From Flavobacteriales bacterium (GTDB lineage: Bacteria; Bacteroidota; Bacteroidia; JACJYZ01), in NCBI GenBank assembly GCA_020435415.1, contig JAGQZQ010000018.1, positions 1 through 42,756 of the forward strand: a stretch of 42,756 bases of DNA. Reading direction: 5' to 3'. The position numbers and the translations under genes are program-made. Positions 9,613-40,361 of the stretch are shown here, in pieces. The notes beneath the pieces are model-generated. The model saw nothing but the letters and a program-made list of their open reading frames with translations. It did no database searches and was not told where the DNA came from. Numbering within the stretch: position 1 is the first letter of the stretch; each line of letters opens with the position of its first letter.

Positions 9613-10152
9613 ATGACCTGGATTTATCTCAAAGCCATTCATATCATTTTCGTAGTGACCTGGTTCTCGGGTCTCTTCTATATTGTCAGATTGTTCGTCT
9701 ATCACGCCGAGGCTTCCGATCAGGACGAACCGAAGCGTTCCATTTTACAGCAACAATACAAGATCATGGAACGTCGGTTGTGGTATGGTATCACCTGGCC
9801 TTCCATGATTATTACCCTCATTACCGGATCATGGTTGGCTTTAGAGCTTTACCGTGTTTCCGTTCCTTCATGGTTGTGGTTGAAGCTGGCACTGGTTCTT
9901 GGATTGGTATTATATCACCTGCGTTGCCATGCGCTGTTCAAGTCTTACCAGAATGATAAAACAGGTTGGAGCAGCATCCGGCTGCGCATGTGGAATGAAG
10001 TGGCGACCTTGTTCCTTGTTGCCATTGTCTTCATTGTAGTATTAAAGAACATTCTAAGTTTCTGGTGGGGATTGCTGGGAATGGTATTGTTCGGCCTGCT
10101 GTTGTGGCTGGCCATTCGAATCTACAAGAAAAGCAGGGTTAATAAGCCCTGA
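9613..10152 (+). CDS. hemJ: HemJ-like protoporphyrinogen IX oxidase / CopD-fold membrane protein
   Basis: This 179-residue membrane protein has four to five hydrophobic segments. Motifs match HemJ (UPF0093): LKAIHIIFVVTWFSGLFYIVRLFVYH (H10 and the R-LFVYH motif at the N-terminal helix), then MERRLWYGITWPSMIITLITGSWLA. HemJ oxidises protoporphyrinogen IX to protoporphyrin IX in haem synthesis in bacteria lacking HemG/HemY; a generic CopD-family label is the fallback. The ATG at 9613 is preferred to the TTG at 9607, which lies inside the -7 element. It converges on and overlaps the purF-like gene by 14 nt at the 3' end. Confidence 0.8.
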   Translation: MTWIYLKAIHIIFVVTWFSGLFYIVRLFVYHAEASDQDEPKRSILQQQYKIMERRLWYGITWPSMIITLITGSWLALELYRVSVPSWLWLKLALVLGLVLYHLRCHALFKSYQNDKTGWSSIRLRMWNEVATLFLVAIVFIVVLKNILSFWWGLLGMVLFGLLLWLAIRIYKKSRVNKP

Positions 10153-12040
10153 CGTTCTTGCCTTCCACGAAGTTGATAAAGGCCCGGTTGACCACCGCGT
10201 TGCCACCCGGTGTCGGGTAATCGCCTGAGAAGTACCAATCACCCATATGATTTGGAATGGCTTTGTGTAATCCTTCAAGGCCGAGAAAAATAATTTCCAG
10301 ATTTGCCTTCATTCCTTCAGGTGTCAGTAGTGTAGCGATCTTGGCGGAAATTTGTTTGGCGGTGAAGGGTGCGTAAATCTCCTTGACCACATTTTGCAAA
10401 TGCTCTGCAGGAAACCCCTCCTGTCCTTTTGCTTTCTCGTACAGCTGTTCAATCAGGTTTTCCTGATGCGTCTCATGTAAAAGTGCAATGGCTGCGCGGA
10501 ACGCAATGAAGTCACCCAACTTGGCCATATCAATTCCATAGCAATCGGGATAGCGAATCTGCGGGGCGGAAGAGGCAATAATGATCTTCTTTGGTCCCAG
10601 GCGATCCAGTATTTTGATGATACTTTGTTTCAGGGTTGTTCCCCTGACGATGGAATCATCAATGACCACCAGGTTATCGGAGCCTTTTTTGACAACGCCG
10701 TAGGTGGTATCATAGACGTGAGCAACAAGGTCGTCACGCTGGTTATCAGCAGCGATGAACGTTCGCAACTTGATGTCTTTGATGGCTATTTTCTCCGCCC
10801 TGGGCTTAACGGAAAGTATCTTCAGAATTTCCTCTTCCGTTAGTTTTTTATCTGCGTTGGCCAAAGCGGACGCCTTGACCTTATTAAGGTGTTCGTTGAA
10901 CCCTTCGATCATTCCGTGATAGGCCACCTCAGCGGTATTCGGGATAAAGGAGAAGACCGTATTCTCGAGGTCGTAATCCACTGCTTCCAGGATATCGGGA
11001 CATAGGGCAGCGCCGAGTGATTTCCGCTCATGGTATATGTCCTTATCATTTCCTCTTGAGAAATAGATTCTTTCAAAAGAGCAGGATTTTCGTTCAAGGG
11101 GCTGAGAGATTTGTTCTTCGCTGAACGTCCCGTCCTTTTTAATGATGAGTGCATGACCTGGTTTTATCTCCTTGATATTCTCAGGCTGTACATCAAAGGC
11201 AAGTTGTATCGGTGGTCTTTCAGAAGTCACCACCACCATTTCATCGTCTTTATAGTACCATGCCGGTCTGATGCCCCGCGGATCGCGTATGACGAATGAA
11301 TCTCCATGTCCGAGCAATCCGGCGATGACATAACCCCCATCCCACTTTTTGCTGGACTCATGAAGGATATCTTTCAGGTTGATCTCCCTCGCAATTTTCG
11401 GGGATATGTCCGCATTGCTTAAACCCTGGTCTTTAAATTTCCTGAACAACCTCTCATTTTCCACATCCAGAAAATGACCGATCTTTTCAAGCACGGTAAC
11501 GGTATCCGATCGCTCCTTCGGGTGTTGTCCGAGTTCAACCAGGTGGTCAAACAGTTCGTCTACATTGGTCAGATTAAAGTTTCCCGCGATCACCAGATTC
11601 CTGGTCATCCAGTTATTCTGACGAAGGAACGGGTGACAATATTCGATGGAGTTCCTTCCAAAAGTGCCGTATCTCAAATGGCCCAAGAGCAATTCGCCCA
11701 TGAAAGCCACATTGTGTTTGAGCCAGTCAGTGTGCGCCATCAACCTTGGATCTTTTCTCTTGACCACATCAAATTTCTGATTGATCTTGGAGAAGATATC
11801 CTGAATGGGTTGATTGCTGTTGGAGCGATACCGGCTGATATACCTCTTACCCGGAGGCATATCCAGTTTGATTGTGGCTACCCCGGCTCCATCCTGACCC
11901 CTGTTATGCTGTTTTTGCATAAGCAGGTATAGCTTATTCAAGCCATACAGCGGCGTACCGTATTTTTTCTCGTAGTAATCCAGGGGTTTCAGGAGCCTGA
12001 TCAAGGCTATCCCGCATTCGTGTTTGATCTGGTCGCTCAT
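10139..12040 (-). CDS. Long amidophosphoribosyltransferase paralogue (PurF family)
   Basis: This 633-residue protein has the PurF order: an N-terminal Ntn glutamine amidotransferase domain, then a type I phosphoribosyltransferase. C9 in HECGIALI would become the N-terminal nucleophile after removal of a short propeptide. HLRYGTFG and GNFNLTN mark the amidase pocket, and VVIDDSIVRGTT is the PRPP loop. C in KSCSFERIYFSRG and YPDCYGID lies where Fe-S ligands occur in the Bacillus-type enzyme. Ordinary PurF has about 450-510 residues; this one is longer, with inserts in the amidase half and a ~100-residue C-terminal extension. PurF catalyses the first step of purine synthesis; whether this paralogue does so is uncertain. 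A -7 element lies at 12117-12110. Confidence 0.85.
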   Translation of the reverse strand: MSDQIKHECGIALIRLLKPLDYYEKKYGTPLYGLNKLYLLMQKQHNRGQDGAGVATIKLDMPPGKRYISRYRSNSNQPIQDIFSKINQKFDVVKRKDPRLMAHTDWLKHNVAFMGELLLGHLRYGTFGRNSIEYCHPFLRQNNWMTRNLVIAGNFNLTNVDELFDHLVELGQHPKERSDTVTVLEKIGHFLDVENERLFRKFKDQGLSNADISPKIAREINLKDILHESSKKWDGGYVIAGLLGHGDSFVIRDPRGIRPAWYYKDDEMVVVTSERPPIQLAFDVQPENIKEIKPGHALIIKKDGTFSEEQISQPLERKSCSFERIYFSRGNDKDIYHERKSLGAALCPDILEAVDYDLENTVFSFIPNTAEVAYHGMIEGFNEHLNKVKASALANADKKLTEEEILKILSVKPRAEKIAIKDIKLRTFIAADNQRDDLVAHVYDTTYGVVKKGSDNLVVIDDSIVRGTTLKQSIIKILDRLGPKKIIIASSAPQIRYPDCYGIDMAKLGDFIAFRAAIALLHETHQENLIEQLYEKAKGQEGFPAEHLQNVVKEIYAPFTAKQISAKIATLLTPEGMKANLEIIFLGLEGLHKAIPNHMGDWYFSGDYPTPGGNAVVNRAFINFVEGKNVRAY

Positions 12041-15195: not shown

Positions 15196-15228
15196 AATAA
15201 CGTAAATTTAGTGGTTTCAGGAGAACCG

Positions 15229-16014
15229 ATGGGTAAATTGTCTGGGGTCGTATTGTTGTTGTCAGCCACGGTGTTGATGGTATCCTGCAAACGGGATGCC
15301 GTTCCTCCATGTCCTTTGACCGGGGCATTCCAGGGAAAAATCTGCAAAGAGTTTCATTATCAATCGGACACATATGTGGGGATGATCCAATGGGAATGGG
15401 ACCAGGATATGGTTTTGAAAAAGACATTCTATACTGATAAGGAACAACCATACAGCTACAGTCTTTTCCGCGGTGATGCTTCCGGTTATCTGCGAACGGA
15501 ATCCACGTTTCAAGAGTCTTCCCAGGCCAGGATGGTTTTCAGGCAATGGGAAGAAGACAGCCTTCACCGCCTCATCCGGTTCTGGGAACAGAAAGGGGGG
15601 ACATCTCTTTTCAAGGAATTCAATTATGACGCCCAGGGACGGATTGAACGGATTGAATGGGATATCAATGCCGGTGAAACCATGTATTATGATATTTTAC
15701 ACTATGACAGCAATGACAGCCTTTACAAGTGGCTCAGATATGATTCCGGTGATGACACCTTTCTTGGGATATGGAGAAAGAGCTACTTCCCTGACCAGGT
15801 GCGGATAGATTGTTATGATGCCCAGAATATATTTACAGGTTATGAGTTGTTTCGTTATGATGGGGAAAAACTAAAGAATCGATTTGTGTATGACGCTGAT
15901 GGGAAAATTCTCGAAGATGAAGCATTCACCTATTACCCGACCGGCTTATTAGAAAAGATCATATTAAAAAAACAGCGGGAACCGGATCACACCACCGAAT
16001 ACAGTTATTTCTGA
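15229..16014 (+). CDS. Hypothetical lipoprotein with YD-like repeats
   Basis: The 261-residue protein begins MGKLSGVVLLLSATVLMVSC, a lipoprotein signal with C20 as the lipidation site. The ATG at 15229 is preferred to the GTG at 15211 because it puts the charged residue just before the hydrophobic core. The mature part repeats an aromatic 'Y-D-x-x-G-R/K' pattern (FNYDAQGRIER, LHYDSNDSLYKW, FRYDGEKLKNR, FVYDADGKILED), like short YD/WD-type or MORN-like surface repeats. Function unknown. It is divergent from the thioredoxin gene and ends at a strong bidirectional terminator. Confidence 0.75.
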   Translation: MGKLSGVVLLLSATVLMVSCKRDAVPPCPLTGAFQGKICKEFHYQSDTYVGMIQWEWDQDMVLKKTFYTDKEQPYSYSLFRGDASGYLRTESTFQESSQARMVFRQWEEDSLHRLIRFWEQKGGTSLFKEFNYDAQGRIERIEWDINAGETMYYDILHYDSNDSLYKWLRYDSGDDTFLGIWRKSYFPDQVRIDCYDAQNIFTGYELFRYDGEKLKNRFVYDADGKILEDEAFTYYPTGLLEKIILKKQREPDHTTEYSYF

Positions 16015-16365: not shown

Positions 16366-17373
16366 TCAAGCCTCTACTGAAGCATTCACCCAACCCTTTT
16401 TTGTAAGGTACTGGGCGATCTGCACGGCATTCGTAGCAGCACCTTTTCGCAGATTATCAGATACAATCCACATATTGAGTGTGTTAGGCTGTGATTCATC
16501 GCGGCGTAACCGGCCAACAAAGACTTCATCTTTATGCTGTGCATTCAACGGCATAGGATACACTCCGTTTTGAGGATCATCCTGCAAAACCACCCCTTCG
16601 CTGTTTCCAAGAAGCTCACGAACCCGATCCAGGTCAAAATCCTTTTTGAACTCAACATTCACGGATTCAGAATGTCCTCCGATCACCGGAACACGCACAG
16701 CAGTTGCCGTAACCCCAATATTCGGATCCCTGAGAATCTTCCGGGTCTCATTCACAAGTTTCATTTCCTCTTTGGTATACCCGTTCTCCGTAAACACATC
16801 ACATTGTGGCAGGCAATTCCGATCAATGGGGTGTGGATAAGCTTTCTCGCCTTCGACACCGTTCCGCTCGTCTTCCATTTGCCGGGCGGCTTTCACACCG
16901 GTACCGGTAACGGATTGATAAGTGGAAATAACCAGACGCTTGATACCGTATTCCTTATGTAGCGGGGCAAGCGCCACCACCATCTGGATGGTTGAGCAGT
17001 TGGGATTGGCAATAATCTTATCCTTTTGGGTCAACGCATCGGCATTGATCTCCGGAACTACCAGTTTCTTGTCAGGGTCCATACGCCATGCCGATGAATT
17101 ATCGATCACGGTGGTTCCTACCGCCGCAAATTTCGGCGCCCATTCAAGAGAGGTACCACCACCTGCAGAGAACAACGCAATATCCGGCACCATGTCAACA
17201 GCCATCGCCATGTCCACCACCTTATACGGTTTACCCTTGAACATAATTTCCTTACCTACGGATTTTTCGCTGGCAACAGGGATGAGTTCAGTGATAGGTA
17301 AATCGTGCTCGGCCAGCACCTTCAGCATTACCTGGCCCACCATTCCGGTGGCGCCTACGACGGCAACTTTCAT
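16366..17373 (-). CDS. asd: Aspartate-semialdehyde dehydrogenase
   Basis: This 335-residue cytoplasmic enzyme reduces aspartyl phosphate to aspartate semialdehyde with NADPH, the branch point to lysine/diaminopimelate, threonine and methionine. The Rossmann loop GATGMVG is at 7-13, the catalytic cysteine C126 is in NPNCSTIQ, and H233 in GGHSESV is the acid/base residue. Length and motifs are normal. It is a single-gene unit with its own terminator, divergent from the lamin-tail gene; no exact -7 element was found upstream. Confidence 0.97.
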   Translation of the reverse strand: MKVAVVGATGMVGQVMLKVLAEHDLPITELIPVASEKSVGKEIMFKGKPYKVVDMAMAVDMVPDIALFSAGGGTSLEWAPKFAAVGTTVIDNSSAWRMDPDKKLVVPEINADALTQKDKIIANPNCSTIQMVVALAPLHKEYGIKRLVISTYQSVTGTGVKAARQMEDERNGVEGEKAYPHPIDRNCLPQCDVFTENGYTKEEMKLVNETRKILRDPNIGVTATAVRVPVIGGHSESVNVEFKKDFDLDRVRELLGNSEGVVLQDDPQNGVYPMPLNAQHKDEVFVGRLRRDESQPNTLNMWIVSDNLRKGAATNAVQIAQYLTKKGWVNASVEA

Positions 17374-17505
17374 GCTTTCTTGTTTTTAGTTTGGATAATG
17401 TGTTGTTAAAACTTACACCCCTCAAATTTGGGCCTGTAAAAATACTAATTTGCCCCCGATTCTCTTAGCATTGAGGGCTTTTATTATTAAATTTTAGGAA
17501 GACTG

Positions 17506-19293
17506 ATGGTCCGTTTCCTTCGGCTTGCCCTCGCCATTTTACCACTGATTACCCAACACGTCTATTCTCAGACAACCGATCCGTTCAAAGATGGGAACCT
17601 CTCCCACAACCCGCCATGGACAGGAGATACAGCCATGTTCAAAGCGGAAAACGGGGTATTACACCTCCATGGCAAAACGGCTTCAGACTCGGCTGGCATT
17701 CAAACGTTAATGGCCAATTATGACAGCCTGGAATGGTATATCCGATTGTCCCTGGGATTCTCTCCAAGCAACAACAACCAATGGCGTTTTTATCTCGCAT
17801 CAGGTTCCGGGGGACTAAAAAACGGCCCTTCAGTATATACCCAAATCGGAGAAACAGGCAGTGAAGATGCTATCGAACTGCTTTACCGGGATCAAAACCA
17901 GGAGACTTCCTTCTTCAGAGGACTATACCACATCAACAAAAACCGGAATGACCTCTCACTCAAAATACGGTACCATCAGGGGCTATGGGAAATCTTCCTG
18001 GACAGTCTGGGAGCAGATGACCTGTACCTGGAAGGATCGGCATTCTATCCACTGACATTCATGCCGGAATACCTGGGCATATGGTGCCGGTATACGAAAT
18101 CCAACGCCGCGTCTTTTTGGATGTCGGACCTTTACGCCGGTCCATGGCGCATCGATACACAACCACCGGTCCTGGAAAACATCCGCGTGCTTCCACCTTC
18201 AACCCTCCATCTCGATTTCTCTGAACCGGTACAATTCCTTGCTGCAGGTCAAATCGGGAACTACAGTTCAACCAGGGGAATCGGACATCCTTCATCCGCT
18301 TCGCGGAAACAAGACAAAATCAACGAAGTGGTTCTGCAATTTGCCACCCCTTTTGAGGAGGGCATCATTTACGGCCTCGATATTCGCGGCGTCAAAGACC
18401 TCTCCGGATGGCCCGTGGCGCACACCACGCACCTGTTTTCATATTATCATACTTCGCCTCACGAGGTGGTGATCAATGAGGTCCTGTTCAATCCCAAAGG
18501 GGACGGGGTAGACTTCGTAGAGATCGTTAACAGGTGTTCTCACCTGGTTGACTTGTCCGGTCTTTTACTTTGGAATGAAGACGAAAACGGAAATCTTCAA
18601 CATCCTACCCGGTTGACAACAAATCAGGATTGGCTTTTCCCGGGCGAGTATGTCTATTTTACAACCGACAAAGAACGTCTCAAACGTGATCATCCGAATA
18701 TGATCTGGGACCAGGGCGTGCAACTAACAATGCTACCTCCGTACTATAACGACCAGGGAACGGTGGTCCTGACAACGATGGACACCTTCATCATTGATCG
18801 TATGAAATACAATGAGGAAATGCATTTCCCCACGCTGAACAATGTGGAAGGTGTGTCTCTCGAACGCATACGACCTGACGGGCCTTCCGACGATCCATCA
18901 AACTGGCATTCGGCATCCTCTGCATCCGGATATGCCACCCCTGGGTTTATGAATTCCCAATCCGATCCCTCAACAAAGAAAACCGCCATATTGAGCATTC
19001 AACCTCATGTATTCAGCCCGGGAAATGACGGCAAAAACAACACTGCATTGATCCGGTATGAGATGCCTGAACCGGGATGCCTCGGAATAATACGGATTTA
19101 TGATGCGGCCGGCCGGCTGATCCGTTTCCTGTTGTCGGAATCATTACTCGGGAGATCCGGAGCCTTATCCTGGGATGGTACCAATGAAGAGGGAGTACCG
19201 GTTGATGCGGGCATTTACATTGTATGTTTGCAATGGATGCACAACAACGGAATACCTGAAAAAAACAAGGAGTTGGTGATCGTCCGGTTTTAA
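17506..19293 (+). CDS. Secreted protein with lamin-tail domain and FlgD-like C-terminus
   Basis: This 595-residue exported protein has a signal peptide (about 1-21, ending VYSQ). An N-terminal region (about 25-215) looks like a concanavalin-like beta-sandwich. An Ig-like linker (DTQPPVLENIRVLPPSTLHLDFSEPV) precedes a lamin-tail domain at about 315-450 (EVVINEVLFNPKGDGVDFVEI, then the WLFPGEYVYFT stretch). The C-terminal ~90 residues (FSPGNDGKNN, YDAAGRLIR, WDGTNEEGVPVDAGIYI) form a FlgD-like Ig module, which in Bacteroidota often ends extracellular proteins. Lamin-tail proteins are often associated with secreted nucleases or surface proteins; no enzyme domain is visible. AGGAAG lies about 6 nt before the ATG. 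Confidence 0.82.
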   Translation: MVRFLRLALAILPLITQHVYSQTTDPFKDGNLSHNPPWTGDTAMFKAENGVLHLHGKTASDSAGIQTLMANYDSLEWYIRLSLGFSPSNNNQWRFYLASGSGGLKNGPSVYTQIGETGSEDAIELLYRDQNQETSFFRGLYHINKNRNDLSLKIRYHQGLWEIFLDSLGADDLYLEGSAFYPLTFMPEYLGIWCRYTKSNAASFWMSDLYAGPWRIDTQPPVLENIRVLPPSTLHLDFSEPVQFLAAGQIGNYSSTRGIGHPSSASRKQDKINEVVLQFATPFEEGIIYGLDIRGVKDLSGWPVAHTTHLFSYYHTSPHEVVINEVLFNPKGDGVDFVEIVNRCSHLVDLSGLLLWNEDENGNLQHPTRLTTNQDWLFPGEYVYFTTDKERLKRDHPNMIWDQGVQLTMLPPYYNDQGTVVLTTMDTFIIDRMKYNEEMHFPTLNNVEGVSLERIRPDGPSDDPSNWHSASSASGYATPGFMNSQSDPSTKKTAILSIQPHVFSPGNDGKNNTALIRYEMPEPGCLGIIRIYDAAGRLIRFLLSESLLGRSGALSWDGTNEEGVPVDAGIYIVCLQWMHNNGIPEKNKELVIVRF

Positions 19294-19295
19294 AT

Positions 19296-19424
19296 CTATC
19301 CGATGATGAGCATGGTAATGCTGAACAGGAACAGGCAAATGGCCAGTCCGACGGATAACGCCAGGGTATATCTGGCCAGGTGTACGGTAAATGTTTGCGG
19401 GGTGTTTGATTCCTGTTTCTTCAT
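19296..19424 (-). CDS. 42-residue single-span membrane protein
   Basis: This gene is below usual ORF cut-offs. The protein reads MKKQESNTPQTFTVHLARYT, then a hydrophobic helix (about 21-41) ending IIG. The N-terminus is polar and positively charged, so it should sit in the cytoplasm. Its ATG overlaps the stop of the adhesin gene as ATGA (19421-19424), which implies translational coupling, and its stop is 2 nt from the end of the convergent lamin-tail gene. The overlap and the clean TM topology argue for a real gene; no family is recognised. It may belong to the small 'hypothetical TM' proteins that follow secreted cargo. Confidence 0.6.
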   Translation of the reverse strand: MKKQESNTPQTFTVHLARYTLALSVGLAICLFLFSITMLIIG

Positions 19425-22400
19425 CGTGTTATGATCAGCATTTCACTGGCAATGGACTGATTACTGCTTCCAATGACCATATAAAGTCCGGGAGAAAGAC
19501 GTTGATACGGGTCTATGACACTTACCGCTTCTCCATTGGAATTGGTGAGTATGACTTTTGAATAATACTCTTTTCCATTGTTATCCATCACCACAACAAG
19601 CACTTCTTCATTTTCATTGAACTGTGTCAGTCTCACGTTCACTTCATCGTTGCTTGTAGGATTAGGGAACAGTCCCAGCGAAGGCTTGCTCGATGCATTG
19701 GCCTCCGACAAGGGTGCAATATAAACCGCCACCGGTGAAGAATAGGTCACATCACCATTGTAGTCGGTTTGCTTCAGTCGGTAGTAAGACATCCCTGTGT
19801 AGGGCATCTCATCCGTACCGGCATAGTATTGAGTGGTGATGCTGTTTCCGGCACCCTGTTTCCTTAACACTTCCTGATAGATAATTCCATCCAGGGATTT
19901 CTCCACAGTAAAGTAATCGTTGTTTTGTTCGCTGGCTGTGACCCATGTCAGATCCACACCACCTTTTTCAGGTGTTGCATCAAAGGACAACAATTCAATG
20001 GGCAACGGAGAACTCAGTCCACCACCTACGGCCATCGGACCGATGTTGGTCACTGCAGAAGCCGTAACCGTATATGGATTGGAACCACCTGCGGCAGCGG
20101 TAGCACCTTGCTGATCCCAGGCTCCACCAGTGTAAATACTGATGTATGAATTGGCGCGATCAAAGTCACCGGTTTCATCAGCCGCATTCCATTGCGCTGT
20201 GATATCAGCGATCGGAGAACCTGAATTGGTAGACACCTGCCACGTCTTATTGGATACCTGTACACCCACCTGTGTACCTCCACAGGTACCGTCATCATAA
20301 ACGTTGTTACAAACGCGTACATCGAACTGACCGGAAGCACCGGCAGAGTTGTCAATGGTCAGAGGTGTATAGCTTGTGGTACTGGTTCCGACCGGGAATG
20401 TTCTTGAAGCGGTCACCGCAGCGATATTCAGCGTTCCTACACCACTGGTCACAACGTAGGTGGATGCGCTAAAACCGGTGATTGCATTTCCGCTTGTGAC
20501 AGTCAGATCATATGCACCGAGGTCCAGTTTCCCGTTGGAGAAGGCCAAAGAGCCATCCACGCTGATATCTCCGGCGGTGGTCACATCACCGGAAGTATTG
20601 GCAATCGTCAGATTGTAAAAGGGAGAAGAAACCGGTGTGATCAACTGCGCTGCACCGCCATTCAGTGTTACGGTACCACTACCTCCATGGGTAAAGGTAC
20701 CAGCGGTGAGCCTCCAGTTTCCACCCACTTCTATATTGCGTCCAGACGCATTAAGATCGCCATCAAAAAGATTAATTGTACCGTCAACAAACAGATCATC
20801 ACCAAGATTATAGTCATCATTACCGGAGGCACCGGTATTATTTAACTGCAGGGTCCAGAAATGGGATCCGTTACTGGTAATTCCCTGGTCTGCAGTTGTG
20901 CCTGAGAACCAAACAGAACCACCTCCACCATGGGTAAAAGAACCTCCTGTATTGGTCCAGTTTCCTCCAAGTATGATGTTAAAGGCATTGGCATTCAAGT
21001 CTCCATCTGTTATTGTAAGGGTATTATTCACCGTCAACGCATCTGCCATTAGAATATCATCATTTCCCGCTGCTGCCGTATTGTTAATAACGAGGTTATA
21101 AAACGGGGAACCATTACTTGTAATGGTCTGGTCTGCAGCGGTGCCATTAAAAGTAACAGAGTTCGCACCTCCGTGTGTAAATGTGCCTCCGGTATTGTTC
21201 CAATTACCTCCTACCGTAATATTGGCACCATTGGCATTGAGATCACCATCAGAAATCGTTAGATTACTAGTAACGGCTAAAGCATCCGTTAAAATATAGT
21301 CATCAGATCCCCCTGCACCAGTGTTATTCAATGTCAGCGCGTAGAAATCCTCACCCGACGACTTAATGTTCTGATCCGCGGTACCATTCAGAGTAACGGT
21401 ACATGTATTGTTATGGTTGAAGACCCCTCCGTTGTTCGTCCAATTTCCAGCCACGGAAATATTGAAGGTAGATGTTGCAAGGGTAGGACCTGCATTAAGT
21501 GTAAGGTTACGATTAACCGTAATGTTGCCTTGCAGTGTTTTATTGGAAGAACCACCAAAGGTAACATCATAGTAGGTGGTCGATTGTATATTCTGTGCAG
21601 CCGTACCATTCCAGTTGACCAGGTTTCCGGAAGCCGTAGCCGTCAATGTAGCGAGGATGTTTCCGCCGGTATTCAGCGTTCCGGTGGCCGTGTTAACAAA
21701 TGTTCCCGTACCCTTAAGATTGGCTGTGGTATTGAGCGTTCCATTGTTGGTAAGCGTCTTGCTTGCAGCAATATCAATGGGTTTGGTGAATGAAAGGCTG
21801 GCGGTCGCATCAATACTCATATCATACATCACATACATCCCGGCACTCACCGCAAAGGACCCGTTTCCGGAGATTGTTGCACCAGCGGTCTGAAGATATA
21901 CGTAACTATTTGCGTTACCGCCATCATGCGTACCGTCATTGGTATAATCGCCATAAACATCAATCTGGTCGTTGTTATCATGGGAAAGGGTCGCTGTATT
22001 CTCTATCTCCAGATCGCTGCATGAATAATCATTGTTAACGGTTACGGCATCGCCTGCTTTGATGATGACATTGTCACACGCTGTTGGCACAACGGCACCA
22101 TTCCAGGTAGCACCTACGGACCAGTCACCACCTCCGGTACCATTGGATTCTATTGTACCACCGCCTGCAATAACCGTCAGGTCGGCATGGTTGGTTCCAT
22201 CGGCCACATTCCAGGAACCCGTGCTAGTACCGGCATCGAAGGTTACTGTTTTGGGGCCTCCGGCTACTGTAGCCGTCGTTATCTTCATTTGTAAACCAGA
22301 AATGGTGAAGTTGTCATCTTTATTGGCAGTTCCGTCGGTCGTTATGGTTACTGTGACCGTAGATGAAGTTACTCCAATAGCAACGCTGGTAATATCCCGT

Positions 22401-22657
22401 CCATTCTGCTTAGACACACTTGCACCTGTGGTATTGAATTCAAAACCGGCAGGTGCCTGCAGTACATATGTTTTGTTGGTTTGGCTGGCAGCAAAATCAC
22501 CATTGGCATTTTCATCCACGTTGATATCACCCAGATCCTTCCAGGCAGCGCAACCTTCTGTGAAGGTGGCTGCACCCTTTGTGATCGTAGGTTGTGCCCA
22601 TGCACTGGCTGATGCCAATACCCCACATATGATGAGAATATAGAATTTCGGACGCAT
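19421..22657 (-). CDS. Large repetitive T9SS-secreted adhesin-like protein
   Basis: The protein has 1078 residues, with a signal peptide (about 1-22, ending AWAQ). A beta-rich N-terminal region (to about 230) is followed by parallel-beta-type modules and four tandem repeats of about 81 residues carrying GGNW, FTHGG, NGTAADQ and DGDLNA motifs. A linker with an Ig/FN3-like module (LLSFDATPEKGGVDLTWVTA) precedes a type A T9SS sorting domain: LFPNPTSNDEVNVRL and, at the end, GLYMVIG...EMLIITR. ATG at 22657 is preferred over GTG at 22669 because AAGGTGAA lies about 8 nt before it. It is the kind of protein anchored at or released from the surface; ligand unknown. The 42-aa gene follows with an ATGA overlap. 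Confidence 0.9.
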   Translation of the reverse strand: MRPKFYILIICGVLASASAWAQPTITKGAATFTEGCAAWKDLGDINVDENANGDFAASQTNKTYVLQAPAGFEFNTTGASVSKQNGRDITSVAIGVTSSTVTVTITTDGTANKDDNFTISGLQMKITTATVAGGPKTVTFDAGTSTGSWNVADGTNHADLTVIAGGGTIESNGTGGGDWSVGATWNGAVVPTACDNVIIKAGDAVTVNNDYSCSDLEIENTATLSHDNNDQIDVYGDYTNDGTHDGGNANSYVYLQTAGATISGNGSFAVSAGMYVMYDMSIDATASLSFTKPIDIAASKTLTNNGTLNTTANLKGTGTFVNTATGTLNTGGNILATLTATASGNLVNWNGTAAQNIQSTTYYDVTFGGSSNKTLQGNITVNRNLTLNAGPTLATSTFNISVAGNWTNNGGVFNHNNTCTVTLNGTADQNIKSSGEDFYALTLNNTGAGGSDDYILTDALAVTSNLTISDGDLNANGANITVGGNWNNTGGTFTHGGANSVTFNGTAADQTITSNGSPFYNLVINNTAAAGNDDILMADALTVNNTLTITDGDLNANAFNIILGGNWTNTGGSFTHGGGGSVWFSGTTADQGITSNGSHFWTLQLNNTGASGNDDYNLGDDLFVDGTINLFDGDLNASGRNIEVGGNWRLTAGTFTHGGSGTVTLNGGAAQLITPVSSPFYNLTIANTSGDVTTAGDISVDGSLAFSNGKLDLGAYDLTVTSGNAITGFSASTYVVTSGVGTLNIAAVTASRTFPVGTSTTSYTPLTIDNSAGASGQFDVRVCNNVYDDGTCGGTQVGVQVSNKTWQVSTNSGSPIADITAQWNAADETGDFDRANSYISIYTGGAWDQQGATAAAGGSNPYTVTASAVTNIGPMAVGGGLSSPLPIELLSFDATPEKGGVDLTWVTASEQNNDYFTVEKSLDGIIYQEVLRKQGAGNSITTQYYAGTDEMPYTGMSYYRLKQTDYNGDVTYSSPVAVYIAPLSEANASSKPSLGLFPNPTSNDEVNVRLTQFNENEEVLVVVMDNNGKEYYSKVILTNSNGEAVSVIDPYQRLSPGLYMVIGSSNQSIASEMLIITR
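20498..21451 (-). repeat. Four in-frame ~243-bp tandem repeats
   Basis: Units begin at 21451, 21211, 20968 and 20725 on the minus strand, with lengths of 80, 81, 81 and about 76 codons. Each unit starts (A/G)GNW and holds FTHGG (FNHNN in the first) about 10 residues later. The middle two are the most alike. The last is more diverged. The array can expand or shrink by recombination without a frameshift. Confidence 0.85.
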
Positions 22658-22909
22658 AATATTTTTCACCTTCGTATGCTGTGTTATACCGTTGGTTTCA
22701 TAAGTAGTTTCACTTAAATCCGTTAAAAAAGCTCAGGTGTAGCTACCATCCGACAAAGTGATTATTATTGTCTACTAAAAATTCGGATAGATTTGCCTCA
22801 CCATCAGGCTTTCAGGTACTTTAATCCCCACCAAAACGGGCAAAGCCGGGGCCAAAACAACCTCAATAAAATAAATACTTTATAATCAATTACTTATAAA
22901 TTTTAGCCT

Positions 22910-27073: not shown

Positions 27074-27130
27074 AGGTTTTATTATTGATGTAAATCCATT
27101 AGGTTTGAGAACTCACACAGCAACGTGCCT

Positions 27131-27631
27131 ATGAAACTGATGACGATGACATTGCTGACCCTGACCGTACTTCTGCGTCAGTCGGCTTGCAACCAGGACA
27201 AACCTGGTGAAGAAGTAACGAAAGAAGATCATGCAACCAAAAAGGAACAACTAGACACAAAAGTGATCATGAGCAGGGAAGCACAACTGGGTGCGACAAC
27301 ACTCCGTTGGGAAAAACGGTCCGACCAATCCATCCATTGGAATGAAGAGGCAATGAAGGCAGCTTCCGGGTGGAAGGCGGATTCCGTTCGCGAAAACGGC
27401 ACGGCCCGAAATGCAATGGCAGAATTTCTGGATGCAGATTCGTCATTGATCCTGGGATTAAGTGCCGATGAGATCGAAGCCTTTCTGGGTCCGCAAGAAG
27501 GTCCCGAAGACCGCTTTCAGTACCGTTATGATAAACACTATACCGGCGAAGACCAATACATGGGTTGCTGGCTGGTGATCTTCATGAATGAACAAGGGAA
27601 AGCAAAGGACGTCGCAAGAATGTGTCCGTAA
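27131..27631 (+). CDS. Hypothetical lipoprotein
   Basis: This 166-residue protein has a hydrophobic N-terminus ending at C20 (LLRQSAC), a weak lipobox acceptable for Bacteroidota. A charged linker is followed by a compact domain (about 85-166): GLSADEIEAFLGPQEGPEDRFQYRYDKHYTGE, then a CWLVIFMNEQGKAKDV stretch. That part resembles SmpA/BamE-like small lipoprotein folds in pattern (strand after 'LG.P'), but the match is too weak to name. The ATG at 27131 is preferred over GTG at 27125. It lies 57 nt after the oligopeptidase gene and 90 nt before the porZ-like gene on the same strand. Confidence 0.7.
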   Translation: MKLMTMTLLTLTVLLRQSACNQDKPGEEVTKEDHATKKEQLDTKVIMSREAQLGATTLRWEKRSDQSIHWNEEAMKAASGWKADSVRENGTARNAMAEFLDADSSLILGLSADEIEAFLGPQEGPEDRFQYRYDKHYTGEDQYMGCWLVIFMNEQGKAKDVARMCP

Positions 27632-27721: not shown

Positions 27722-30076
27722 ATGCAGATAGAAAGAAAGAGGTCGCGCTTTACACTCACCGCAGGTTTGTGGCTTGGCTTGCTGTTTCATACGGCAGGTC
27801 AGGAGATCGCCATCGGCCAGTGGCGTGATCACCTGCCTTATCAGAATGTAAAAAGGATTGCACGGGCCGACGATCGCATTTACTGCGCAACCAACTTTGG
27901 CCTCTTCGAATATTCGTTTACTGATCAGTCCATACAACGCCTTTCCAGCGTGAACGGACTTTCCGATTTCGGGGTGAGTACCATTGAATGGAGCGATGAC
28001 TACAACCTCCTGATCATCGCCTACAACAATGCAAACATTGATATCATTGAAAACAATAAGATATATAACATCAGTGATATCAAACGAAAGTCCATCCTGG
28101 GCGACAAGTCCATCAAAAGTGTACTTTTCATCGGACCGTATGCCTACCTGTCCTGTGGCTTTGGGATAGTGGTTCTGGATATCACTAAAAAAGAAGTCAA
28201 GGAAACATACGTGATCGGACCGGGTGGCAGTCAACTCGCGGTAAATGCACTCACCTATGATGGTACCTGGCTATACGCGGCTACGGAAAAAGGGGTATAC
28301 AAGGCAAAAGCCAATGACCCGAACCTGGTGAACTTTGCTGTTTGGAGCAGGTATGAAGACATATCCCAACCTGCCGCCAACTACAACATGATCGCCAGTT
28401 TCAACGGTAAACTTATCGTAAATAAGAACGGTGCTCAATACAACACCGACACCTTGTTGGTCAATGATGGAATGGGATGGACCTACTTTAATCCGGCCGT
28501 TTCCTGGACCAATCATGGTCTTGAAGTCCATGACGGTTTGCTATATCTTACGAACTACTTCAGCGTGGAGTCTTATGACACATCCCTGGTCAGGCAGGAA
28601 CAAATGTTCGGTTGGTCAGGTGATGCTTCTCCTATGCATGCCATACCGGAGAGCCCGGGTCTGGTATGGATCGCGGATAGCAGGAACGGCCTGATACGAT
28701 ATTCCAATCCTTCCCTCTGGCAGATCATTGCACCGAATGGACCGATCAGCAACAATGTTGCAGATATGGATATTCGCGACGATATCCTTTGGGTGGCTTC
28801 AGGGGGTGTCAGCGAATCCTTTGGAAATCTTTGGCGTACGGAGGGCATTTTTAAATTTGACAACCAGAGCTGGGTAAACATCAACAAGGGCAACACCTCC
28901 GGTTTGGATACGCTGTTTGATCCCATCAAGATCATTACAGATCCTGTTGATGCCGGGCACATTTTTGTGGGCTCCTGGGCACGCGGCCTGGCAGAATTCA
29001 GAAATGGCAGCCTCGTTACCTATCACACCGATCAGAACAGTGCATTACAACGGATTGATCTGCCCAACTTCTATTGGATAGGAGTAGGCGGTTTGGATTT
29101 CGATGAGCAGGGGAATCTCTGGATCACCAATACTTCGGTATTAAACCCGCTGGTTGTGAAACGCAACAACGGCACATGGAAATCTTTCTCGCTGTCACCT
29201 TATGTCACCACGAGCCATAACGTCTCTGAAGTGTTGAGCAGTCAAAGCGGACAGCAATGGGTTATTATACCAAGAGGGCCTACAAAAGGCATCGTGGTCT
29301 TTGATAGCAATGGCACTATTGATAATACTTCAGACGATAAAAAGATCATGCTACGTACCGGTGTTGGCAGTGGAAACCTGCCATCAGACGAGGTGCTATC
29401 CATTGCTGAAGACAGGGATGGGGAGATATGGGTCGGCACCAGGGTAGGACCAGTCATTTATTATACCCCCGAATTTGTGATGTCGGGTGGGGATGCCGCA
29501 GACGCACAAAGGGTCCTTGTGGAACGCGACGGCTTTACAGAATACCTGCTGGATGGAACGGCCATCACATCCATCGCCATAGACGGTGCCAACCGCAAAT
29601 GGCTGGGAACCGAACTCAGCGGCGTTTTCCTGTTGTCGGAAGATGGCACGGAAGAGCTGGCTCATTTCACTTCGGATAACAGTCCGCTTATTTCAAATAA
29701 GATCAATAACATCACCATCAACCCCGACAATGGAGAAGTGTTTTTTGCCACGGATCAGGGACTCATTTCATACAAAGCTTCCGCAACAGAGGGGGGTGAA
29801 ACATTCGAAGAAGTACTTGTATACCCCAATCCGGTAAAAGAAAACTATGAAGGTCCGATTGCCATCCGTGGGTTGGTGGAAGATGCCAACGTAAAGATTA
29901 CCACGGCGAGTGGATCCGTGGTTTACGAAACTACCGCGTTGGGTGGACAGGCCATATGGAACGGGCGTAATTTTGATGGTGTTAAGGCAGCCACCGGTAT
30001 CTACCTTGTTTTCTGTACAAATGAAGATGGCAGTGAAACAATGGTGACCAAAATTCTGGTGATCCGGGGAATTTAG
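27722..30076 (+). CDS. porZ: PorZ-like T9SS component with beta-propellers
   Basis: This 784-residue exported protein has a signal peptide (about 1-27) and the family hallmark IGQWRDHLPYQN near 31-42. Two beta-propeller domains follow, built of repeats such as IYCATNFGLFEYS, LYAATEKGVYKA and IWVGTRVGPVIYY. A C-terminal Ig-like sorting domain starts at VYPNPVKENYEG and ends with a TGIYLVF strand and KILVIRG. In Porphyromonas gingivalis, PorZ sits on the surface in the T9SS attachment complex and presents anionic LPS to the sortase PorU. This assignment is by architecture; propeller-only relatives exist. It is 4 nt upstream of recO and likely in the same transcript. Confidence 0.85.
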   Translation: MQIERKRSRFTLTAGLWLGLLFHTAGQEIAIGQWRDHLPYQNVKRIARADDRIYCATNFGLFEYSFTDQSIQRLSSVNGLSDFGVSTIEWSDDYNLLIIAYNNANIDIIENNKIYNISDIKRKSILGDKSIKSVLFIGPYAYLSCGFGIVVLDITKKEVKETYVIGPGGSQLAVNALTYDGTWLYAATEKGVYKAKANDPNLVNFAVWSRYEDISQPAANYNMIASFNGKLIVNKNGAQYNTDTLLVNDGMGWTYFNPAVSWTNHGLEVHDGLLYLTNYFSVESYDTSLVRQEQMFGWSGDASPMHAIPESPGLVWIADSRNGLIRYSNPSLWQIIAPNGPISNNVADMDIRDDILWVASGGVSESFGNLWRTEGIFKFDNQSWVNINKGNTSGLDTLFDPIKIITDPVDAGHIFVGSWARGLAEFRNGSLVTYHTDQNSALQRIDLPNFYWIGVGGLDFDEQGNLWITNTSVLNPLVVKRNNGTWKSFSLSPYVTTSHNVSEVLSSQSGQQWVIIPRGPTKGIVVFDSNGTIDNTSDDKKIMLRTGVGSGNLPSDEVLSIAEDRDGEIWVGTRVGPVIYYTPEFVMSGGDAADAQRVLVERDGFTEYLLDGTAITSIAIDGANRKWLGTELSGVFLLSEDGTEELAHFTSDNSPLISNKINNITINPDNGEVFFATDQGLISYKASATEGGETFEEVLVYPNPVKENYEGPIAIRGLVEDANVKITTASGSVVYETTALGGQAIWNGRNFDGVKAATGIYLVFCTNEDGSETMVTKILVIRGI

Positions 30077-33828: not shown

Positions 33829-36800
33829 TTACGACCTCTTTAATCTGTATTTCAGCCTTTCCTTCATCAGATACATGACCGGAATGATGACCAGGGTGAG
33901 GAAAGTGGCAAAGGTCAGACCGAAGATCACAGCCCATGACATAGGCCCCCAGAACACCACGTTGTCTCCACCGAAATAGATGTCGGGGTTAAAATCGGAC
34001 AACAGGGTGAAGAAGTTGATGTTCATACCTGTGGCCAACGGGAACAATCCCATAACCGTTGTGATAGCGGTAAGCAATACCGGACGTAAACGTGTTTTTC
34101 CACCTTGTACGACACATTTCACCAATTCATCATACGGCAGGCGATCATCTTCGCCCAGACCAAGTTCCGCCTTTCTGCGCTCACGCAACAGGTTGGTATA
34201 GTCTATCAATACAATGGCATTGTTCACAACCACACCGGCCAGAGAAATGATACCGATCATGGTCATCATGATCACGAATTCCATCCGGAAGATCACCAGT
34301 CCGAGCAACACACCTGTAAGGCTGAATACCACAGAGGCAACAATGAGTACAGGGGTGGTGGCGGAATTGAACTGCGCCACAATGATCAGGAAGATCAGGA
34401 ATACAGCGATGATCAGTGCTGATCCCAGGAAGGCCATTTCCTTGGCCTGTTCTTCCTGCTCACCGGTGAATTTATACTCTACTCCATCAGGAAGTTCGAA
34501 GTCATTCATCGCTTCCTTGATCTGGCCTACCACTTCCGTCGGGTTATAATTCTCCGTTACCGAAGAGAACACCGTTACTACCCTGCGGGAGTTCTTACGT
34601 TTAACAGCGCTATAGGTAGAACTTTTATGAACGCTTGCCACGGCTGAGATGGGTACTTGCTTGATCTTACCTGACGTCTGATCACGAAATGTGATCCGGG
34701 TGTTCATCAGAGCTTCTGCATCATAGCGGTAGCGATCATTAAAACGAATCTGGATGGGATATTCATCCTCACCTTGTTTGAACTGTGACACTTCGCTACC
34801 ATAAAGAGCAGTTCGGATCGTGGACGCGATCTGGCCGGTTGAAAGGGATAAGCGTCTGGCTTTCGCCCGATCAATGTCTACGATCAACTCCGGCTTACCC
34901 AACTCGATATCAAGCTTCAGCTCATCAATACCTGGAATGTTTTTGCTTTCGATAAAGCTTTTGATGCGATCGCCTTCTGTCAGCAGTTGGTCGATATCAT
35001 CCCCGGCAACCTCTATATTAATCGCTGCACCGGCAGGCGGACCAACATTGTCTTTTTCCACCCTGATCTTCACGCCCGGAATTTTGCCTTTTACCGCATT
35101 CCGAATATCTTCCATGACCACACCTGTGTTCACAAAGCTTCCGGTTGACGGGTCAACACGGTATTGGTATTCACGAAAGTTAACGGTGATACGTGCACGA
35201 TGGGGTGTATTGCTCATGGAAGGTCCTTCATTCGGGTCAGTGGTTCCTTCCCCAACGTTGGCAATCACACTTTCCACCAGAAAGTTTCTTTTGTTCTCAC
35301 CTACCTCGAACTTTCTCACCTGATTCATCACGATTTCCTCCACCTCGCGTGTGGCCTTATCGGTTTCCTCTATATCCGTTCCGATCGGCATTTCCAGAAA
35401 TATGTTCACATACTTGGGCATATTCTCAGGAAAGAACAATGTTTTGGGAGGGAATACCCCCAGCAAAACAAAGGACAAGAAGAGCATAACAATGGTTCCA
35501 CCCAGGAATGCAAGTGGTCTGTACCCGGAAAGTGTACGTGTCAGGAACCGCTCATAAAAATTCTCTACGCGCGGCATCACCCCATTCTGAAACTTATGAG
35601 CGCCAGGCACCAGAAGGAAGCCGTTCACCAACGAAATCACCACGCTAAACAGCAATAAGCTACCCATGGTAATCATTTCACCTGCATAAAAAAGGAGTGC
35701 CAATACGAAAGCAATGGCGGAATACCGAAACATGGCTTTTCGGTTTACCTTCTCCTGTTCCACCTTCATCCAGATTGCCGTGAATACCGGATTGATTACA
35801 AGCCCCACAAAGAGGGACGAGCCAAGTACGATAATCAGTGTCAATGGCAGGAATCCCATGAACTCACCCATCATACCCGGCCAGAACATGAGTGGTAAAA
35901 AGGCTGCCAATGTTGTTGCGGTGGATGCAATGATGGCCACGGCCACCTCACCCGCTCCTTCCTTGGCCGCTTGCCGTGCGGACATCCCCTCACTCATCAG
36001 ACGGTAAATGTTCTCCACAACCACGATCCCGTTATCCACCAGCATACCCAGTGCCAGGATGAGCGCAAACAGCACCATCATATTGATGGTAGCACCCATG
36101 GCACCCAGGATCATGAATGACGTGAACATGGAAAGCGGTATCGCGATACCGACGAACAAGGCATTGCGCACTCCCAGAAAGAACAGAAGGACCAATACCA
36201 CCAGAATGACACCTGATATAATCGAGTTCTCAAGGTTATCCACCATACTCCTGGTCATCTGCGACTGGTCATTGGTAAGGGAAACCGTAAGATTATCCGG
36301 TAAAACATTTTCTTCCGCCTCGTCGAGCACTTCCTGGATATGCTCCATGGCGGATATCAGGTTCTGACCTGCACGTTTCACCACATCAAGCATCACCACC
36401 GGTTTCTCGAACTCGCGGGCATAACTTTCCCGTTCCTCGAACTGGAAGCGAACATCTGCGATATCTTTCAGGTAAACAATGTTGCCATGCTCCTGCTTCA
36501 CAATGATATTCTCGATCTCCTCCATACTTTCAAAATCACCGACCGCTCTGACGGTACGGCGAATTCCGCCGACTTTGATATCGCCACCGGCGATGGTGAG
36601 GTTCTCATTGGCAACAGCGCCGGAGATATCATTAAAACTGATCTTCAGTGCCTCCATGCGGTGCATATCCACACTGATCTCTACCTCTTTCTCCTGCAGC
36701 CCACGAATATCTACTTTGGAAATTTCCGGGATATCCTCGATCCGGTCTTCGAGATACTCAGCATATTCCTTTAGCTGATCGGATGAGAAATCTCCGGAGA

Positions 36801-37272
36801 GGTTGATATTCAGGATGGGGAATTCCGAGAAATTCACTTCGAAGATGTTCGGTTCTGCAGGCAGGTCGGTCGGGAAGCTTGGCTCAGCCCTGGCTTTGTC
36901 TACCGCATCCTTCACCTTCCGGAGCGCCTCTGTGGGACTCACACTGAAGTCGAACTCCACCAGAATGGTAGAATAACCCTGGAGTGAAGTAGAGGTGATC
37001 TTATCCACATCGCTGATGGATTTGATCTCTTTTTCCAGTGGCCTGGATATTAATTTCTCCATATCGGCCGGAGAGTTTCCCGGATAGGCAGTACCTACAT
37101 AAATCTGAGGCATTACAATATCAGGGAATGATGCCTTTGGCATGGACCGATACGAAACGATGCCAAGTATCACGATGATAAACATGAGCACCATCACGGT
37201 ACTCCGGTTATTCACGGATAAGGTGGAAAGGAAAAACTCCCTTTTTACACCGGTGTTTTTTTGATCACTCAT
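33829..37272 (-). CDS. RND efflux permease (AcrB/HAE1-like)
   Basis: This is a 1147-residue inner-membrane proton-drug antiporter of the RND superfamily. TM1 is about 25-42, and two large periplasmic loops follow the first and seventh TM. TM4 holds the GMLVDNGIVVVENIYR motif with D413, a proton-relay aspartate. The repeated half has MTMIGIISLAGVVVNNAIVLIDYTNLLRERR. Length exceeds typical AcrB (~1050), with extra residues in the middle. The D-N motif (one D instead of DD) points to the HAE1 or lipid/hydrophobe-type branch rather than metal-type. It is last in tetR-tolC-mfp-rnd, 1 nt after the mfp stop. Substrate not evident. Confidence 0.93.
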   Translation of the reverse strand: MSDQKNTGVKREFFLSTLSVNNRSTVMVLMFIIVILGIVSYRSMPKASFPDIVMPQIYVGTAYPGNSPADMEKLISRPLEKEIKSISDVDKITSTSLQGYSTILVEFDFSVSPTEALRKVKDAVDKARAEPSFPTDLPAEPNIFEVNFSEFPILNINLSGDFSSDQLKEYAEYLEDRIEDIPEISKVDIRGLQEKEVEISVDMHRMEALKISFNDISGAVANENLTIAGGDIKVGGIRRTVRAVGDFESMEEIENIIVKQEHGNIVYLKDIADVRFQFEERESYAREFEKPVVMLDVVKRAGQNLISAMEHIQEVLDEAEENVLPDNLTVSLTNDQSQMTRSMVDNLENSIISGVILVVLVLLFFLGVRNALFVGIAIPLSMFTSFMILGAMGATINMMVLFALILALGMLVDNGIVVVENIYRLMSEGMSARQAAKEGAGEVAVAIIASTATTLAAFLPLMFWPGMMGEFMGFLPLTLIIVLGSSLFVGLVINPVFTAIWMKVEQEKVNRKAMFRYSAIAFVLALLFYAGEMITMGSLLLFSVVISLVNGFLLVPGAHKFQNGVMPRVENFYERFLTRTLSGYRPLAFLGGTIVMLFLSFVLLGVFPPKTLFFPENMPKYVNIFLEMPIGTDIEETDKATREVEEIVMNQVRKFEVGENKRNFLVESVIANVGEGTTDPNEGPSMSNTPHRARITVNFREYQYRVDPSTGSFVNTGVVMEDIRNAVKGKIPGVKIRVEKDNVGPPAGAAINIEVAGDDIDQLLTEGDRIKSFIESKNIPGIDELKLDIELGKPELIVDIDRAKARRLSLSTGQIASTIRTALYGSEVSQFKQGEDEYPIQIRFNDRYRYDAEALMNTRITFRDQTSGKIKQVPISAVASVHKSSTYSAVKRKNSRRVVTVFSSVTENYNPTEVVGQIKEAMNDFELPDGVEYKFTGEQEEQAKEMAFLGSALIIAVFLIFLIIVAQFNSATTPVLIVASVVFSLTGVLLGLVIFRMEFVIMMTMIGIISLAGVVVNNAIVLIDYTNLLRERRKAELGLGEDDRLPYDELVKCVVQGGKTRLRPVLLTAITTVMGLFPLATGMNINFFTLLSDFNPDIYFGGDNVVFWGPMSWAVIFGLTFATFLTLVIIPVMYLMKERLKYRLKRS

Positions 37273-37273
37273 G

Positions 37274-38410
37274 TCAGTTCTTCACTTCAATTTTGTCACC
37301 CTCTTTGATGTTACGTGCGCCTACCACGATCACGTTCTCACCCTTTCGGAGCCCTTGCTTGATGTGTGTCTTATTATCGTATGAAAGGCCGGTTTCAACA
37401 AACTTTTTCACGGCTTGCTTATTCTCAGCTGTATAGATGTAGTCCTTGCCTTGTGCGTCCTGCATGATGCTGGAAGAAGGAACGGTCAGTGCGGTATCCT
37501 GCATAAAATCCCTTACCCTAACCACCGAAAGCATGTTGGGGCGGAGCTCGACATTCGCATTATTTATGGACAGGTAAATGCGGAAAGAGCGGTTATCGGG
37601 GTTGATGTATTTTCCCACAGACCTCACTTCCGCATCGTACCATTGATCGTTCAGCATAGAGAAATTCACCACAGCGGGATTCCCTTTCCTGATATCCTGA
37701 ACATACCGTTCCGAAACATCGGCCACGAGGTAAGGCTTTTCGGTATTAACCACGCGAACAAGCGGAATACCCGGCATCGCCATTTCACCTAATTTGATAA
37801 ATACTTCATCAACCACACCGTTGTAAGGGGCCTTTACGATGGCACTTTGTACCTGTTCCCGTACAGTGTTCATGGTTTTCTCAAGTCCTTCTTTGTTGGC
37901 CTTTGCCTGAAGAAACTGAATTTCCGAACCGATTCCCTGGTCCCAGAGATTCTTTTGTTTGTCAAATACCGTTTGAGCCAGTTTCAATTGTGTCTCCACT
38001 TCTGCGAGGCGGGAATACAGGACGTCGCTATCCAGCGTGATCAGGGTTTGTCCTGCCCTTACAGCATCCCCTTCTTTCACGAGGATCTGCTTCACCTTAC
38101 CAGCCGTTTCAGCCGTGATCTGTACACTCTGATCAGCTTCCACCACGCCTTGCACTTCAAAAAAGTGGGCAAACGAATCGGGTTCCACCATATAGGTTGT
38201 CACCAACGCGGTTTTTACTTTATGAGCGGTATCCAGCTTCACCAGTTCGGATTCGATTTCCGTGAGTCTTGACCCAATCTCTCCGTACACGGTTTTCAGG
38301 CTATCTCTTTCAGATTTGAGCTTACGAATAGCCTCATTGGGTTCTTGTTCCTGGCAACCGAATATAAGGGCGGCAACAGGCAGCCAAAGCAAATGTTTCT
38401 TGTACATCAT
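37274..38410 (-). CDS. RND periplasmic adaptor (membrane fusion lipoprotein)
   Basis: The 378-residue adaptor bridges the permease and the outer-membrane channel. It starts with a lipoprotein signal (C19 in ALIFGC), then a coiled-coil stretch (about 28-60). The lipoyl/barrel-sandwich half follows (VVEADQSVQITAETAGKVKQILVKEGDAVRAGQTLI, APYNGVVDEVFIKLGE), then an alpha-hairpin and beta-barrel. The AcrA/MexA fold order is complete. The ATG overlaps the tolC stop as ATGA and the permease start follows the stop by 1 nt, so all three are translated together. Confidence 0.93.
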   Translation of the reverse strand: MMYKKHLLWLPVAALIFGCQEQEPNEAIRKLKSERDSLKTVYGEIGSRLTEIESELVKLDTAHKVKTALVTTYMVEPDSFAHFFEVQGVVEADQSVQITAETAGKVKQILVKEGDAVRAGQTLITLDSDVLYSRLAEVETQLKLAQTVFDKQKNLWDQGIGSEIQFLQAKANKEGLEKTMNTVREQVQSAIVKAPYNGVVDEVFIKLGEMAMPGIPLVRVVNTEKPYLVADVSERYVQDIRKGNPAVVNFSMLNDQWYDAEVRSVGKYINPDNRSFRIYLSINNANVELRPNMLSVVRVRDFMQDTALTVPSSSIMQDAQGKDYIYTAENKQAVKKFVETGLSYDNKTHIKQGLRKGENVIVVGARNIKEGDKIEVKN

Positions 38411-39744: not shown

Positions 39745-40361
39745 AGCAAATTGGTTTTCATGGTTTCTATTTTCTTTGAGAGATATTTGATTCCTTTTTC
39801 GCTGGCGATGCCCCTGATATGGTATCGCATCAGTTCCAGGTAAACCGTGTTGAACTCATACAGATCCGGCGGAAACACTTCAGGATTGAACATATCCTCC
39901 ATGCGGGTGATGTAAATGCGGGCGATAACTGATACGTTCAGGTTATCCCTGTACAATCCTTCCTTGATACCATTCTCCATGTTCCGCACCATGCATTGAT
40001 AAATGAACTCCAGCTTATGTTGCGTATACAGGGCCCAGGCTTCCGGATAGTATTTATTGAGATCATAGTGAATGGACGGATGAAAATCCGTTAGCTTCTC
40101 GTTGATCACTTTTGTTACCTCAAATAATTCGTCGATGGCATTCAAGCCGGAAGTAAACAGCTCTTCGAACACACATTGGTCCTGTTCCAGGTTTACCGTC
40201 ATGACCTGCTTTACAAGATCGGTCTTGTCGTTCACGAACTTATAAAGGGTCTTCTTTGAAATGGCCAGTTCGCGCGCCACATCGTCCATTGTCACACTCT
40301 TGATGCCACAACGGAAGAACAACGCCATAGACTTCTGCAAAATCATATCCTTCTGGTCCAT
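39741..40361 (-). CDS. TetR-family repressor of the efflux operon
   Basis: This 206-residue regulator has an N-terminal HTH (about 20-45: VTMDDVARELAISKKTLYKFVNDK) and a helical C-terminal ligand domain. It is first gene of the efflux operon and overlaps tolC by 4 nt, and a 28-bp operator-like palindrome overlaps its promoter. TetR proteins repress until a ligand binds; here autoregulation together with the pump genes is likely. The inducer cannot be read. The ATG at 40361 lies 4 nt after the -7 element. Confidence 0.92.
   Translation of the reverse strand: MDQKDMILQKSMALFFRCGIKSVTMDDVARELAISKKTLYKFVNDKTDLVKQVMTVNLEQDQCVFEELFTSGLNAIDELFEVTKVINEKLTDFHPSIHYDLNKYYPEAWALYTQHKLEFIYQCMVRNMENGIKEGLYRDNLNVSVIARIYITRMEDMFNPEVFPPDLYEFNTVYLELMRYHIRGIASEKGIKYLSKKIETMKTNLL

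Follow-up and report, generated by a model that had tools for sequence, protein, structure and literature searches.

Small single-transmembrane (TM) proteins of fewer than 50 residues are represented in bacteria by MgtR and YohP, and lineage-specific hydrophobic (intergenic) microproteins are reported, in the excerpted text of PMC11188072, to be common in enterobacteria. UgtS, in the portion of PMC8896665 at hand, is a narrowly distributed small protein that is encoded upstream of its partner in the two-gene ugtS-ugtL operon and that interacts with the partner product, UgtL. The type IX secretion system (T9SS), as summarized in an excerpt of PMC10202324, picks its cargo in the periplasm via the CTD and has an inner-membrane motor, PorL/PorM. 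The locus described here places a 42-residue single-TM protein, referred to as the miniprotein, directly behind a gene for a T9SS cargo. The window is the whole stretch of DNA that was analysed, 42,756 nucleotides in length.

Organization of the locus

The first gene of the pair, on the minus strand at 19421..22669, encodes a repeat adhesin-like secreted protein of 1082 residues, which is large and repetitive and has a signal-peptide-like hydrophobic N-terminus and a type A T9SS sorting domain. The Por_Secre_tail match (PF18962) that marks it as type A cargo lies at its C-terminal end (19433..19672, minus strand). It exceeds the 27-bit cut-off in the genome search, at 28.8 bits, but falls short of it, at 24.8 bits, when the whole protein is searched; the initial annotation of the gene as a T9SS adhesin is right in kind. 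The genome itself, a 3.48-Mb draft, has a large type A cargo set, with 115 Por_Secre_tail matches, 105 of which are marked over the cut-off. PorZ, a protein of the T9SS attachment complex, is encoded about 5 kb from the adhesin (27722-30076, plus strand; NF052228, 666.6 bits against a cut-off of 260).

The miniprotein ORF occupies 19296..19424 on the minus strand, with an ATG start, 42 codons that translate to MKKQESNTPQTFTVHLARYTLALSVGLAICLFLFSITMLIIG and a TAG stop; its mechanical stop-to-stop frame is 48 codons. The ATG (19424..19422) shares bases with the TGA of the adhesin (19423..19421), forming an ATGA at 19421..19424 with a spacing of -4. The miniprotein is the final ORF 3' of the adhesin and takes up almost all of the 127-nt gap between the adhesin and a convergent gene at 17506..19293 on the plus strand, which encodes a protein with a Lamin Tail Domain and with weak CHU_C/FlgD_ig matches at its C-terminal end. 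The TAG (19298..19296) is 2 nt away from the TAA of this gene. Since the gene that flanks the adhesin at its other end, uvrC (23011), is divergent, the adhesin and the miniprotein form a free-standing two-gene unit.

Several other genes of the window have features of their own. The divergent pair of asd and the Lamin Tail Domain gene (16366-19293) is kept in seven of seven other loci (L096, L097, L098, L099, L197, L198 and L199), where the Lamin Tail Domain proteins are about 29-36% identical; the linkage is an old one. A 633-residue ORF (10139-12040, minus strand) has a partial amidophosphoribosyltransferase match of 129.9 bits against a cut-off of 350 and only weak GATase domains in Pfam. 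TetR, outer-membrane channel, HlyD and RND efflux genes form a compact operon at 33829-40361 (minus strand), with gene ends that overlap or nearly do so. Two plus-strand ORFs, of 267 residues (15211-16014) and 168 residues (27125-27631), have no Pfam or NCBIfam match.

Evidence that the ORF is a gene

The open frame and its overlap with the adhesin are cheap to obtain. When 200,000 first-order Markov sequences, drawn from a composition-matched model trained on the region's own 131 bases, are set behind ATGA, 23.5% of them remain open for 40 codons, and openness and overlap are therefore weak evidence for a gene. This and the lack of any relative that would show conservation are what could be said for a chance or decayed ORF that is not translated. 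The content of the frame says otherwise. Its synonymous-codon score, calculated against 25 window ORFs that were the analyst's pick from the ORF list and that do not include the miniprotein, is 0.183, which is higher than that of 98% of the 40-codon windows from these reference genes and of all 5000 random synonymous versions of the miniprotein. Among the roughly 47,000 open Markov sequences, a hydrophobicity of at least 2.5 is reached in 0.05%, a codon score of at least 0.183 in 0.004%, and both together in none. None of the 186 shadow ORFs of 35-60 residues inside window genes attains either value, and their top codon score is 0.104. Because codon usage and hydrophobicity together lie outside these nulls, the miniprotein ORF is very probably a real gene, and an untranslated ORF is a very improbable reading. 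The proposal that an easily missed small protein is encoded here thus appears to be correct.

Sequence and topology of the miniprotein

The miniprotein has a polar N-terminus followed by a single C-terminal membrane helix. The one strong hydrophobic segment spans approximately residues 19-41 (19302..19370, minus strand), with a best 17-residue Kyte-Doolittle mean of 2.78, and an AlphaFold2 model made from the single sequence, with no alignment, has one helix at residues 9-41 with a mean pLDDT of 81.6. The frame, the overlap and the single hydrophobic segment confirm the 42-residue single-TM ORF that had been noticed starting within the adhesin stop codon. With one hydrophobic helix, fewer than 50 residues and no other domain, the miniprotein has the features of a small single-TM membrane protein.

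The positive-inside rule allows an orientation to be read from the placement of charges. Since the charged residues K2, K3 and R18 precede the hydrophobic stretch and none follows it, the miniprotein is likely to be oriented N-in and anchored by its C-terminus. The marks of a lipoprotein or of a cleaved secretion signal are absent: the lipobox pattern is L-A/S-G/A-C, while the miniprotein reads L-A-I-C, and no mature part comes after its helix. The layout predicted from these features leaves nearly no periplasmic portion.

Expression and coupling

No promoter of the miniprotein's own was found. In scans that test the consensus only, the minus strand has no TANNTTTG box (promoter -7) from 19424 to 21556 and no sigma-70-like site within 19000-19700. 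The Bacteroidota-type promoter pattern is not in excess in the window. The sole nearby promoter-like match is of sigma-70 type and lies on the plus strand at 19406-19435, where one match was found and 1.4 are expected. The only terminator-like site found is likewise on the plus strand. Folding of the minus strand around the miniprotein is barely better than that of shuffled sequences (z -1.34), and neither strand clearly beats its shuffles.

A small hydrophobic toxin of a type I-like pair, silenced by antisense RNA, would also be short with a single TM helix, and, with only 2 nt between the stop of the convergent gene and that of the miniprotein, readthrough of the former would yield RNA antisense to the latter. 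The promoter-like match on the plus strand, no more frequent than expected, argues against this reading, as do the searches of Pfam and NCBIfam, in which no similarity to a toxin family was found. To our knowledge, type I toxins are not usually found as a cistron behind a large adhesin, and a toxin is extremely improbable here.

The two genes lie on the same strand with an NTGA overlap of -4, the arrangement of translationally coupled genes. According to the excerpts of PMC12548453 and PMC10666635, the 4-nt overlap is the commonest coupled spacing; the former gives two models of coupling, in one of which the same ribosome reinitiates. Because of this spacing and because no promoter of its own was found, the miniprotein is probably made behind the adhesin. 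The suggestion that it is made in step with a secreted cargo stands in so far as the placement fits coupling (PMC12548453, in excerpt), but the link to the T9SS is unsupported beyond position. In the excerpted data of PMC10666635, pairs spaced -8 to +10 encode heteromeric complexes 8.1-fold (H. volcanii) and 4.5-fold (E. coli) more often than wider pairs, and complexes account for 45% and 30% of these close pairs, respectively. A stable complex of adhesin and miniprotein is nevertheless unlikely, since the adhesin is exported while the miniprotein would remain in the inner membrane.

Distribution of the miniprotein

Searches of genomes of the class at E<=0.1 gave matches in 16 of 394 non-self genomes, the best of them at 0.0024 and interrupted by an in-frame stop; a reversed-sequence control matched 15 of 395 (best 0.0043). 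At E<=0.02, one of 394 non-self genomes of the phylum has a match, which also carries an in-frame stop. Since the matches in the class are about as frequent as those of the reversed control, the miniprotein was not found in these searches to co-occur with the T9SS across Bacteroidota. It has no Pfam match over the cut-off, no NCBIfam match and only weak, unconvincing PHROGs matches; nothing was found in PDB sequences, plasmids or phages, and its own genome has no second copy. The term orphan means here that a homologue is undetected, a 42-residue single-helix protein being near the detection edge of such searches.

The scan of genome contigs with the neighbouring Lamin Tail Domain protein (17506-19293) found no close relative. 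In the scan with a four-sequence alignment of this protein, the best of the 80 loci kept is 34% identical, and the region 3' of the neighbour gene is occupied by other genes in L197, L198, L199, L096 and L098; the tblastn set at these neighbour loci also included L100 and L101. Judged from these comparisons, the miniprotein is most likely a lineage-restricted small protein.

A real small gene that was born or landed behind the adhesin, and that uses the adhesin transcript for its expression while having an unrelated function, would also be an orphan in every search and would be paired with cargo nowhere else, as is the case. The lineage-specific microproteins reported from enterobacteria (PMC11188072, in excerpt) lend such an origin some plausibility. 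Its codon usage, however, is fully adapted, above 98% of real gene windows, unlike that of a very young gene, and the reading is possible but rather unlikely.

Miniproteins and T9SS cargo genes

If miniproteins of this kind accompany cargo genes, they should be found behind other members of the type A set. The 3' ends of 114 of the 115 type A matches were inspected, first 112 (110 in loci and two in the window) and then two more; the one left out (C115:9-110) extends past the end of its contig. Among the 114, a single match has a small TM ORF with gene-like codon usage 3' of it, namely the adhesin at 19421..22669. Among the first 112, six others are followed by an ORF of 25-120 residues with a hydrophobicity above 1.9, but these start at +3 to +97 and their codon scores are at most 0.045. 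The other ORFs with codon scores of at least 0.08 behind the 114 matches all have a hydrophobicity of at most 1.81, with no comparable helix. A general rule of cargo gene plus miniprotein is rejected, as there is no second case among the 114.

Loci with homologues of the adhesin in other genomes give the same picture: none of the 29 has a coupled TM ORF, defined by a start no more than 20 nt from the stop codon. In L283, L292, L294, L302 and L309, the TM ORFs that occur close to the homologue begin between 32 and 149 nt behind it and are uncoupled, the nearest being those of L309 (GTG start, 37 residues, +32) and L292 (ATG start, 31 residues, +48). A lookalike in L286, a 41-residue TM ORF 97 nt 3' of the adhesin homologue, was assigned to a separate unit because a GC-rich hairpin with a T-run intervenes and because its own stop overlaps the start of the gene after it (TAATG). 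This second gene is a 145-residue ORF with a strong hydrophobic segment, so that the two form a miniprotein-first pair (L286:739-1301, genome G108), which presumably resembles the DUF4236 type.

The control set consists of 81 loci, made up of the window together with 80 named contigs that have the neighbour gene at their centre, in which 1057 of 1078 mechanically called genes were assessed, 21 being dropped because their downstream sequence is missing. A TM ORF of 25-60 residues that starts at -11 to +5 follows one of 23 CTD genes, which is the adhesin, and none of 1034 others. With wider limits of -20 to +150, such an ORF lies behind one of the 23 CTD genes and 20 of the 1034 others. From the counts at -11 to +5, a tightly coupled TM miniprotein is rare overall and is no habit of cargo genes. 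With one case in 114 in its own genome and none in 29 homologue loci, the miniprotein is no general part of the T9SS, and the expectation that TM miniproteins would follow other T9SS cargo genes was not borne out.

In a narrower, cargo-specific form of the export role suggested initially, the miniprotein would be a dedicated partner that aids this one adhesin in Sec insertion or in release from the inner membrane before the T9SS takes over. The restriction of the ATGA overlap to this cargo gene and the size and repetitiveness of the adhesin favour it. The same surveys of cargo matches and homologous loci tell against it, as does the near absence of a periplasmic part in a protein whose supposed client is selected in the periplasm (PMC10202324, in excerpt), and a dedicated partner is improbable. 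More specific still, and quite improbable, is a miniprotein that sets when, or how much of, one large adhesin passes from Sec to the T9SS, being delivered by reinitiation with each translation of the adhesin. As judged by titles and the openings of abstracts, the matches listed from the type IX secretion and small-protein literature include no cargo-coupled miniproteins or cargo-specific T9SS regulators of such a kind.

Proposed function

A role in cargo export, as initially suggested, is left unsupported, as there is no pairing elsewhere and almost no periplasmic part. Given that the selection of cargo takes place in the periplasm, an export factor would fit the miniprotein less well than an unrelated passenger or a protein that modulates a resident of the membrane. 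The reading that we favour, with moderate confidence, is that of a genuine lineage-restricted microprotein which is the second cistron behind a type A cargo gene, is made by reinitiation, and acts as a modulator in the inner membrane outside the general T9SS. A ribosome that finishes the adhesin at ATGA would restart on the same bases, and, judging from the overlap, the 42-residue protein would be produced in some proportion to adhesin synthesis. It would go into the inner membrane as a single helix, the short and charged N-terminal part lying on the inside, and there, by analogy with characterized small membrane proteins, it would most likely bind a resident membrane protein within the bilayer. 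Should there be a link to the adhesin, the miniprotein would gauge or modulate the load on the envelope during adhesin production. Any such function is suggested by position alone.

The miniprotein adds one well-supported orphan case to the unannotated bacterial microproteins, and codon usage and hydrophobicity can flag such a gene even when it has no relatives. A true cargo partner would imply that single T9SS adhesins may bring their own inner-membrane helper, but the evidence points otherwise.

Comparison with known systems

The likeness to PorL/PorM (PMC10202324, in excerpt) is one of concept only, an inner-membrane helix near a secretion cargo. The miniprotein has neither the size nor the domain of PorL/PorM, has no acidic TM residue like theirs, and is not conserved with the T9SS. 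UgtS, as far as the excerpt of PMC8896665 describes it, is likewise a small protein of narrow distribution in a two-gene operon. The order of the genes is different, however, since ugtS is the upstream gene and the miniprotein ORF lies downstream of the adhesin, and, whereas UgtS interacts with its operon partner, the product of the miniprotein's partner gene is exported. In form, the miniprotein resembles small proteins such as MgtR (PMC11188072) and YohP. Even though it differs from them in having no detected similarity to any family or solved structure and in being coupled to a T9SS cargo gene, the miniprotein is like them in its length, its one helix and its lack of a catalytic domain, and, as with them, its likely action would be through another membrane protein.
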